Shown here one piece after another: positions 16,236-18,700 of a stretch of 41,352 bases of DNA. This DNA comes from a virus: IMG/VR virus record IMGVR_UViG_3300034101_005142, positions 1-41,352 of that record; one strand, 5' to 3'. The notes beneath the pieces are model-generated. The model was not told the DNA's origin. It worked only from the letters and a program-made list of their open reading frames with translations, and searched no databases. Numbering within the stretch: position 1 is the first letter of the stretch; each line of letters starts with the position of its first letter. The position numbers were made by a program, and so were the translations under genes.

Positions 16236-16952
16236 TCAGGTTCCGGCGTCAGCGGCGACGGCAGCGGGTCGGCGACGGGCGGACCCCTGTTTCTTGGCCT
16301 CGTCGGCGTCGATCTCGACCGCCCGGTCCTTCATGGCCTGCAGCTGAGCCATGTTCATGCGCCCCTCCTGCACGCTCTTGGAGGCACGCGCCAGCACGGA
16401 AGCCCGATCGTTCGGGTTTTTGGCTGCTTCCAGTGCGGCCATCGCCAGGGACCCAACGCGGGCCGTGTCAGCCAGGTCAGCGCCGGCAGACGCCTGCTCT
16501 GCAGTGGCCCCGTCGTCGTCGTCGTCGGCAGCCAGGCCGAGCATTGCGCAGTACGCCGTGCGGCGGGCGTAGGTAATCGAAGCCGCCATCTGCTGAGGGC
16601 TGGTGGCCTGCTTGATCGGGATCAGGCTTTCGATGTACTGGCCGCTGGAGTGCAGGAGCTGGGTGCACAGCACCATCTCGCCCTCGCTGTTGTTCGTCAG
16701 CGTTTGGACTACCGCCAGCCCCTGCTCAGCCAGCGACTTGGCCGCCGACTTGTGGCACTGAGCCAGGTCGGCGTAGTCAGGAATGGGCTTTCCGTCCGGC
16801 CCCTTCTTGGCAAAGTGGCTGACCCGATTGCGGACCAGCGGCAGAAAGCCAGGCACGGCCTTCGCCAGTGCGGCAGCCAGCTCACCGGTGCCGTCGGGGC
16901 AGCGGTTCAGGGCGGTGTAGATCTTCTTGTAGGCAACAGCGGTCTCGCTCAT
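16236..16952 (-). CDS. erf: ERF-family single-strand annealing protein
   Basis: The protein is 238 residues with the hallmarks of the ERF superfamily: DYADLAQCHKSAAKSLAEQG near residue 60, LLHSSGQYIES near 100, and the signature AASITYARRTAYCAMLGL followed by an Asp run (about 123-147). ERF proteins anneal complementary strands in phage recombination. The gene overlaps the exonuclease by 4 bases (ATGA), forming a classic exonuclease plus annealase pair. The C-terminus is Ala/Lys-rich and probably flexible. Confidence 0.9.
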   Translation of the reverse strand: MSETAVAYKKIYTALNRCPDGTGELAAALAKAVPGFLPLVRNRVSHFAKKGPDGKPIPDYADLAQCHKSAAKSLAEQGLAVVQTLTNNSEGEMVLCTQLLHSSGQYIESLIPIKQATSPQQMAASITYARRTAYCAMLGLAADDDDDGATAEQASAGADLADTARVGSLAMAALEAAKNPNDRASVLARASKSVQEGRMNMAQLQAMKDRAVEIDADEAKKQGSARRRPAAVAADAGT

Positions 16953-17857
16953 ACGGTCCCTCGCATGACATGCGCCGGAACTGGAAGTTCAATGACCTCG
17001 CCATGCTGGTCCGGCAACCAGTAGTCGAGGTCCATGCGGACGCGAATGTCCGCCAGAGATCTCAGGAGCCGGCGGCGCCCTTCAGCGACCCACTCCTGAG
17101 GCAGCGTGACGACGCGGCAGTCGTGAGACGGCGCCGTCGAGACGACGATGAAAACCAGCGGGCGGGCCTCCATGCCCAGCCCTTCCATGCCCCACTGGTA
17201 ATGCGCATCCTGCGCGTGATAGCCGTAGTCCTTTACGGACTGCCAGAAGCTCGAGAGGATGTCCTCTTCTCTCGTGGTCTTGAGGTCGACCCACGCTTCT
17301 TCCGAGACCAGGTCCGGCCTGCACCGAAGCAGGTCGCCATCCGGGCCTGTCCACCGAACACTGACCTCGTGTGCGACAGCCGCCTCGATCAGGCGCCGGG
17401 CGGCCTTGTGGCCCATGACAGCATCCGCCTCATAGCGGAGCTGGGCCATTTCCTTAGAGGAAACGGGCTCGCGGCCGGGAGCATTCTCGGCCACCCACGC
17501 CAGGGCCTTCTTGCCGATAAGCCCCGTGTCCGTCAGGACTTCGGAAGGTGGGACGACCAGCTCGTCCCACAACCTGTCCCCTACTTCCAGCCACCGATGC
17601 AGCCGGGTGCCGTGCGAGAGGGCGGAGGATTCTTCCGACTTTATGGACTTTGCGACGTGGCGAAGGTAGAAGTACCTAGAGCCCCGTTTGGCGTGGTCCC
17701 AGAGTTGTGACTTCGACCAGCCGGGAGAGGAGTGGTAATCGGAATTACCCTCCCCCTCCCGTGCGGTCGATCCGTACGGCAATGGGCGATGCAGGACTCG
17801 AACCTGCGACCCCCAGCTTGTCGAGCTGGGGGCAATTGGGTCCAAAGTGTGGGGCAT
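16949..17857 (-). CDS. RecB-type exonuclease (exonuclease VIII-like)
   Basis: The core begins with DYHSSPGWSKSQLWD, typical of exonuclease VIII-like proteins. The PD-(D/E)XK site is RCRPDLVSEEAW then VDLKTT, with the QxxxY box in YHAQDAHYQW. It would resect DNA ends for the ERF protein encoded next. The start is uncertain. ATG 17857 (302 aa, GTAGG upstream) reads through the attP/tRNA-derived sequence. TTG 17782 (277 aa) begins one base beyond the tRNA 3' end but has no Shine-Dalgarno. A perfect-looking GGAGGGGGAGGG lies at about 17743-17755 with no in-frame start after it. Thus integration at attP could change its expression. Confidence 0.82.
   Translation of the reverse strand: MPHTLDPIAPSSTSWGSQVRVLHRPLPYGSTAREGEGNSDYHSSPGWSKSQLWDHAKRGSRYFYLRHVAKSIKSEESSALSHGTRLHRWLEVGDRLWDELVVPPSEVLTDTGLIGKKALAWVAENAPGREPVSSKEMAQLRYEADAVMGHKAARRLIEAAVAHEVSVRWTGPDGDLLRCRPDLVSEEAWVDLKTTREEDILSSFWQSVKDYGYHAQDAHYQWGMEGLGMEARPLVFIVVSTAPSHDCRVVTLPQEWVAEGRRRLLRSLADIRVRMDLDYWLPDQHGEVIELPVPAHVMRGTV
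17783..17832 (-). other. attP core: 3' half of a tRNA gene (Val-GAC-like)
   Basis: On the minus strand: anticodon stem CCAGC, loop TCGACAA, stem GCTGG, variable GGGTC, T arm GCAGG-TTCGAGT-CCTGC, then acceptor ATCGCCC and discriminator A. No D arm or matching 5' acceptor (GGGCGAT) exists upstream, so it is not a whole tRNA. A perfect inverted repeat, CCCCCAGCT (17810-17818) and AGCTGGGGG (17824-17832), flanks 5 bases over the anticodon loop, as expected of a tyrosine-integrase core site. C at position 33 instead of T suggests identity to the host gene starts within the loop. Confidence 0.8.
17840..17851 (+). repeat. 12-bp direct repeat, copy 1 (possible integrase arm site)
   Basis: GTCCAAAGTGTG occurs here and again at 17886-17897 in the same orientation, 46 bases apart, on the integrase side of the attP core. 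The position suits arm-type integrase or excisionase sites. Copy 2 lies within the first codons of the integrase frame. Confidence 0.55.
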
Positions 17858-17881
17858 ACTACCTACCAAAGGGGTTTGCCT

Positions 17882-18700
17882 GTGAGTCCAAAGTGTGTCG
17901 CCGCTCGCTACCTGGCCGAGCGTGAGTGCTGCGCCAAATACGCAACGCAGATGACCAACCTTGCCGCGAAAATACCCGCATTTACGGCACAGGCCATCAA
18001 TTCCTACCTCCGTGCACGCCAAGAATCCTTGTCGCCGTCGAGCGTCGCCAATGACCGAAGGGTCCTGCTCACTCTCTGGCGGTACGCCTGGGAGGAGGGC
18101 CTGATTGCCGATGCCCCAAGGGGCGTCATGCGGATCAAGGTCCCTGCCAAGGCTGTACGGGCGTGGACTATGGCAGAGTGCCGGGCGCTGGTCAAGGGGG
18201 CGGAGAAATTTTCTCGCAAGCGCCTGCGCAACGGCGCCAATCTCGGCCTGTTCTTGCAGTGCTGGACCATGCTGGCCTACGAAACCGGAGCCCGGTACGG
18301 CGACGTTTTCTCCTGGAGGAAGGAGAACTTCCATGGGCTGGCCGTCGGCTGGGTCACGTCGAAAACGAACGTACCCTGCACCAGGGTGATCTCTCAGGCG
18401 ACTCGGGATCTCGTGGACCGAATGTTTCAGGAAAGCAAGGATGGGACGGTTCTGGGGTGGGTGTGCTGTCGCCGGCAGAGCTTCAAGTTCATGCGGCTGC
18501 TGATAGCCAGCTGCGGACTGCCGGCCGGGAGCGGGCGGTGGCTGCGCCGGAGCGCCGCGACGCACGTCGAGATGACCCAGCCCGGCCGGGCGCAGTGGTT
18601 CCTGGGGCACAGGACGCCAGGGCTGGCCGCCAGGCACTACCTGGACCAGACCCAGCTCGTCGGGGCAGCCTCTGGGCCGCCGCCGCTCATGTCTCAGTAG
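17882..18700 (+). CDS. int: Tyrosine integrase
   Basis: I choose GTG 17882, with AAAGGGG 7 bases upstream, giving 272 residues; ATG 17951 has no Shine-Dalgarno and would shorten the N-terminal domain. Residues 10-75 form the core-binding domain. The catalytic domain has Arg138 in YETGARYGD, Lys161 in TSKTN, the box-II Arg222 in WLRRSAATH, LGHRTPG (His243) and nucleophile Tyr253 in RHYLD. The usual His of HxxR is replaced. The whole pattern resembles planctomycete integrases as I remember them. It lies against the tRNA-like attP and so catalyses integration into a tRNA gene. It converges with the 1210-aa gene, overlapping by 7 bases. Confidence 0.9.
   Translation: MSPKCVAARYLAERECCAKYATQMTNLAAKIPAFTAQAINSYLRARQESLSPSSVANDRRVLLTLWRYAWEEGLIADAPRGVMRIKVPAKAVRAWTMAECRALVKGAEKFSRKRLRNGANLGLFLQCWTMLAYETGARYGDVFSWRKENFHGLAVGWVTSKTNVPCTRVISQATRDLVDRMFQESKDGTVLGWVCCRRQSFKFMRLLIASCGLPAGSGRWLRRSAATHVEMTQPGRAQWFLGHRTPGLAARHYLDQTQLVGAASGPPPLMSQ
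17886..17897 (+). repeat. 12-bp direct repeat, copy 2 (possible integrase arm site)
   Basis: This is the second exact copy of GTCCAAAGTGTG, overlapping the proposed integrase start at 17882. Integrase binding here could repress its own gene. Confidence 0.5.

Follow-up and report, generated by a model that had tools for sequence, protein, structure and literature searches.

Several mobile elements carry their recombination site within a gene. In mycobacteriophage BPs and its relatives, attP lies within the repressor gene, which results in integration-dependent immunity (PMC4557955). The "suicidal" integrases of the SSV type (SSV1), carried by archaeal viruses and plasmids, have the recombination site within the integrase gene (PMC8371274), and in the Myxococcus phage Mx8, attP lies in the int coding sequence (PMC6070905). 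A start codon can also be supplied across a junction, as in phage JC1, where a phage ATG rescues the host rimO gene in the lysogen (PMC9144972). In the Islander pipeline, tRNA fragments that overlap conserved coding domains are filtered out, except for integrases such as those of Mx8 and SSV (PMC4383910). No exonuclease gene crossed by attP was found in the open-access literature searched.

Here, the window is the whole stretch of DNA that was analysed, a linear virus record of 41,352 bases. It contains a tyrosine integrase gene, a presumed attP core derived from the 3' half of a tRNA, and a recombination operon that begins with a RecE/exonuclease VIII-like exonuclease. The core probably splits the start of the exonuclease gene from its domain, such that integration would silence the exonuclease and excision would restore it. 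The features of the locus are as follows:

16236–16952, minus strand: gene for an ERF single-strand annealing protein (PF04404), whose ATG at 16952 overlaps the exonuclease stop.
16949–17857, minus strand: gene for the RecE/exonuclease VIII-like (DUF3799) exonuclease, 302 codons from ATG 17857, identified by profile matches and comparison with relatives.
17780–17782, minus strand: in-frame TTG directly after the core, the sole alternative downstream start, with no Shine-Dalgarno (SD) sequence and absent in most relatives.
17783–17832, minus strand: presumed attP core, a tRNA 3' half of Val-GAC type, identified by an Rfam tRNA match and T-stem covariation.
17818–17824, minus strand: anticodon-loop equivalent TCGACAA, the likely crossover segment by analogy with tRNA-type attP sites (PMC4383910).
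17837–17851, plus strand: direct repeat TGGGTCCAAAGTGTG, copy 1, a possible integrase arm-type site.
17855–17857, minus strand: likely start codon (ATG) of the exonuclease, between the core and the integrase gene, in frame and indicated by comparison with relatives.
17882–18700, plus strand: divergent tyrosine integrase gene with a GTG start and AAAGGGG at 17868–17874, identified by profile and homologue comparison.
17883–17897, plus strand: direct repeat of TGGGTCCAAAGTGTG, copy 2 (93%), a possible arm-type site.

The DUF3799 assignment comes from a PF12684 match of 52.8 bits (cut-off 26), and the exonuclease VIII profile is also matched. The adjoining ERF annealase (PF04404, 48.7 bits, cut-off 25) makes the two genes a recombination pair. 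When read in the exonuclease frame, the tRNA-derived core corresponds to residues of about 9–25, and the integrase GTG at 17882 is 25 bases past the exonuclease ATG on the opposite strand. The exonuclease frame is also open across the integrase antisense (16949–18637, minus strand, 562 codons from a GTG), and automatic gene callers could be misled by this.

The core resembles one half of a tRNA. The Rfam tRNA model matches positions 17783–17867 (minus strand) with 20.2 bits and an E-value of 0.04 in a 161-base search, which is below Rfam's gathering threshold of 29. The fit is good over the 3' half (anticodon stem-loop, T-arm and acceptor strand) and poor over the 5' half. A match confined to the 3' half is what a tRNA-derived attP core should show. 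In addition, inverted arms of 9 bases each (17810–17818 and 17824–17832) flank the anticodon-loop equivalent.

Comparison among relatives points to what is conserved here. In the Val-type cores, three T-stem pairs have changed on both sides and pairing is kept in 100% of the cells, while the peptide encoded by the core varies and is not conserved. A functional core peptide was considered and rejected, as 4 of 14 codons differ non-synonymously between the window and L086 while the RNA pairs stay. The exonuclease leader has no clear codon-position bias, unlike the gene body, and AlphaFold2 assigns it a mean pLDDT of 34 for residues 1–10 and 53 for residues 11–20, the predicted fold becoming confident at about residue 31. 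The compensatory T-stem changes together with the variable peptide indicate that the core is kept as a tRNA, and that the leader apparently needs only to remain open.

One feature of the core does not conform. Position 33 of bacterial tRNAs is invariably T. In all Val-type relatives the equivalent base (17823, minus strand) is C, giving TCGACAA rather than TTGACAA. This is unusual for a tRNA, counts against the preferred reading and bears on the exact host target. In the reading phase of L011, the host base at position 33 would create an in-frame TGA.

The tRNA half could instead be an inactive attP, as a relic or with another role, with integration taking place elsewhere than at this core. 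Consistent with this, attL, attR and attB were absent from about 36 matching viral contigs and from the genomes searched. This explanation is improbable given the covarying T-stem, the centring of the inverted arms on the anticodon loop, and the adjoining integrase, in which the catalytic residues R138, K161, R222, H243 and Y253 are invariant across 15 homologues (the first H of the HxxR motif is R/K here). The integrase matches phrog_1 at 5e-17, with PF00589 below the Pfam cut-off. A divergently oriented homologue of it adjoins the core in 24 of 26 contexts, and, as the gene begins at 17882, the recombination site is not within int. Distant integrases of the family (L217, L219, L220 and L221) likewise lie beside other tRNA 3' halves, one called Leu, at 145–261 bases upstream of int, which further argues against an inactive site.

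Those other tRNA halves are on the divergent strand and are not followed by a DUF3799 exonuclease; they could be used to test the origin of the embedding. A Met-type core was also seen in L062 (3136–3180), where there is no exonuclease and a different tyrosine integrase lies 3.7 kb away. This contig, which may represent a separate element that targets the same tRNA gene, was set aside from the relatives.

Searches for the prophage and host covered several collections. An exonuclease profile search of genome contigs returned only distant RecE-like genes, and no copy of the Met core was present in 296 Actinomycetota or 100 Pseudomonadota genomes. In plasmid and phage collections, there was no full match to the Val or Met core among the matches listed. 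The integrase had no match in cultured phages or plasmids, and the largest protein of the window had none among cultured phages.

The position of the exonuclease start is central to the argument. The TTG at 17782 follows the core, so the window by itself cannot settle the start at ATG 17857, but its relatives can. IMG/VR was scanned with the exonuclease and with core sequences, and 27 distinct viral contexts were recovered in which the core is of Val or Met type. The exonuclease is present in 26 of these (dereplicated, with the window included), and 17 of the 26 carry a tRNA-Met(CAT) half in place of Val. The exonuclease frame is open through the core and linker in all 26, compared with 23 of 52 for the two other frames. 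It also reaches an upstream in-frame ATG or GTG in 25 (the 26th ends at a contig edge), compared with 7 of 52. Textbook SD sequences precede the ATG upstream of the core in L083 (GAGGAGG...ATG) and L064 (AGAAGGAG...ATG), and further examples are found in L067 (TAAGGAG...ATG), L068 (AAGGAG...ATG) and L059 (GGGAGG...ATG). The SD before ATG 17857 in the window itself is weak, which counts against this start.

It has to be considered that the true start is downstream of the core, at TTG 17782 in the window and at other or non-standard starts elsewhere, which would place the core in a 5' leader and leave the gene unbroken. The window, L004 and L005 do have a TTG after the core, and other GTG or TTG codons are present in L083, L011, L061 and L028; these count in favour of such a start. 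We regard it as very improbable, as 18 of the 26 have no ATG, GTG or TTG anywhere in the core or linker, and neither the openness of the frame nor the upstream SD-ATG pairs would be expected.

The comparison thus strongly supports the gene anatomy, the upstream start and the retention of the core as a tRNA. The initial annotation had the core at 17783–17832 read through from ATG 17857; the coordinates are right and the ATG is in the exonuclease frame. Its proposal that the attP core occupies the 5' end of the exonuclease gene, with the start on the integrase side of the crossover, is borne out by the relatives. It had also named a TTG as the only start left behind, and from that part of the core down to the domain, TTG 17782–17780 is indeed the sole ATG, GTG or TTG. 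Translation from downstream of 17783, which it had raised as contrary evidence, is unlikely for the reasons above.

Judged from the aligned loci, the arrangement is shared by about 25 relatives and is not one contig's quirk. Each core type occurs in two reading phases, with 16 and 1 loci for Met and 8 and 1 for Val. The phase of L011 differs from that of its relative L009, and the frame is still open to another upstream start.

The starts of the two divergent genes are close to one another in other members. In L028, L031, L032, L035, L061, L072 and L011, a single CATG contains the head-to-head ATGs of both int and the exonuclease, so that the upstream signals of each gene would fall inside the other. 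Most Met-type phages (including L064, L071, L067, L059, L065, L027, L060, L063 and L078) have a hairpin of 6–10 base pairs located 4–13 bases after the exonuclease ATG, a spacing that hardly varies; the hairpin sequences differ considerably while pairing is kept. In the subgroup with overlapping starts, the other strand of the hairpin also covers the integrase SD, and it may control either gene. The hairpin was not seen behind the exonuclease ATG in Val-type phages such as the window.

Exonucleases without a core provide a control. About 47 outgroup exonucleases mostly start 5–16 codons before the YH motif, and no tRNA T-arm was found in the 200 bases upstream of them. In L037, an orthologous divergent integrase (28% identical) is present without a core, and the exonuclease has its own ATG 13 codons before YH. 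L189 and L199, found in an independent integrase scan, have int and the exonuclease head to head without a core and a GTG about 10 codons before YH. Together, these starts near YH show that the long leader with no nearer start accompanies the core. The head-to-head order without a recognisable tRNA half is seen in L189 and in L199/L200/L215, and L189 and L199 count against the preferred reading. In cultured exonuclease relatives (Cyanophage KBS-S-2A, Cobetia phage Carin1 and Aeromonas phage phiARM81mr), the operons have no integrase beside the exonuclease start.

These controls bear on whether the split gene has any regulatory role. The split may simply be a side effect of the close packing of int, attP and the recombination operon, with a repressor silencing the operon in any case. 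The leader peptide shows no sign of selection, and L037, L189 and L199, with int beside the exonuclease and no core, presumably manage. We consider this unlikely, although it deserves serious weight: the embedding persists across exonucleases of only 34–37% identity, two tRNA types and four phase combinations, even though little would have to change for a start to arise downstream of the core.

Under the preferred reading, in which integration silences the exonuclease, the gene would be whole on free phage DNA. Ribosomes would start upstream of the core, the tRNA-derived segment would form a dispensable N-terminal tail, and the operon would yield active exonuclease together with ERF. Once the phage had integrated at the tRNA, the start codon and ribosome-binding site would be found at the integrase end (attR), along with any promoter lying beyond them. 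The body of the exonuclease gene would stay at attL, downstream of the rebuilt host tRNA on the same strand and without a proper start. As the core lies between the ATG and the domain, a crossover at any point within it would leave the two on different sides. The attL transcript would be trimmed further by maturation of the tRNA 3' end, which would remove the tRNA from the message. With the start lost and the tRNA processed, only excised DNA should give rise to the exonuclease, which would be licensed by excision alone. From this anatomy we infer that integration should occur at the core, that the phage should form lysogens, that the exonuclease should be silent in them, and that this should be of benefit: a lysogen would be free of a DNA-degrading, recombinogenic enzyme, and the recombination genes would come on only after excision.

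Integration could have the opposite effect, turning the exonuclease on or keeping it on via the promoter of the host tRNA, whose own sequence or leader would supply a start. The exonuclease would be co-directional with the tRNA at attL, as this requires. To model the junction, 60 tRNA 5' halves from unrelated bacteria were used as stand-ins for the phage's own target. With tRNA-Met in the main phase, a stop precedes any start in 24 of 30 cases and is inside the tRNA in 22 of 30; with tRNA-Val in the L011 phase, a stop comes first in 30 of 30. In the common Val phase, which is that of the window, a host TTGACA loop would give an in-frame TTG inside the tRNA, and this counts against silencing. 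Since the phages carry TCGACAA, survival of the host-loop TTG depends on the exact crossover. Translation is unlikely to start inside a folded and processed tRNA. With the stops found in the stand-ins, activation by integration is hardly credible.

The effect on ERF is less clear-cut. The initial annotation described the ERF gene as coupled to the exonuclease gene and cut off with it upon integration. The coupling stands, given the overlap of ATG 16952 with the exonuclease stop; the cut-off is weakened by an SD-like GAGGG that ERF has before its own ATG. With this site and a co-directional host tRNA promoter upstream, ERF may still be made after integration. A cut-off of ERF in lysogens is thus less certain than silencing of the exonuclease.

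More broadly, we lean slightly towards the view that in widespread uncultured temperate phages integration decapitates the exonuclease, providing a recombinase-driven, repressor-independent lock on phage DNA recombination that has survived changes of tRNA and of phase. If so, excision would be the trigger for the phage recombination genes, lysogens would be spared a DNA-degrading enzyme without the need for a repressor, and site-specific recombination would join and part a start codon and its enzyme. Programs that look for islands and prophages but reject tRNA fragments lying over coding genes could overlook elements of this kind.

The locus shares a number of features with known systems. Like ordinary tRNA-targeting phages and islands, it has a tyrosine integrase and a tRNA 3' fragment in attP, with the core centred on the anticodon loop (PMC4383910). 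It differs from the Islander set in that a non-integrase gene crosses attP and the conserved domain of that gene is outside attP. As in BPs, the attP core is inside a phage open reading frame, and integration would alter the gene product in a recombination-driven switch. In BPs, however, the repressor sheds its 3' end and becomes active, whereas here a DUF3799 exonuclease, not a repressor, loses its start and should fall silent. Similarly, the SSV-type site is in a gene that integration breaks and excision restores, as predicted here, but in that archaeal element it is the integrase itself that is split, while here the integrase is intact and a DNA exonuclease is split. Mx8, a phage of bacteria, likewise has its attP within a coding sequence, and integration yields a recombinant gene; in that case int has its 3' end replaced and its product is still active, whereas here the neighbouring exonuclease would lose its 5' end. 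The likeness to JC1 is that recombination supplies a start codon across the att junction. In JC1 a host gene gains a phage ATG, whereas here a phage gene would lose its own. Known attP-in-gene switches thus act on a repressor or an integrase, and the locus described here appears to present a new target: an exonuclease paired with an annealase, which would lose its start and not its end.
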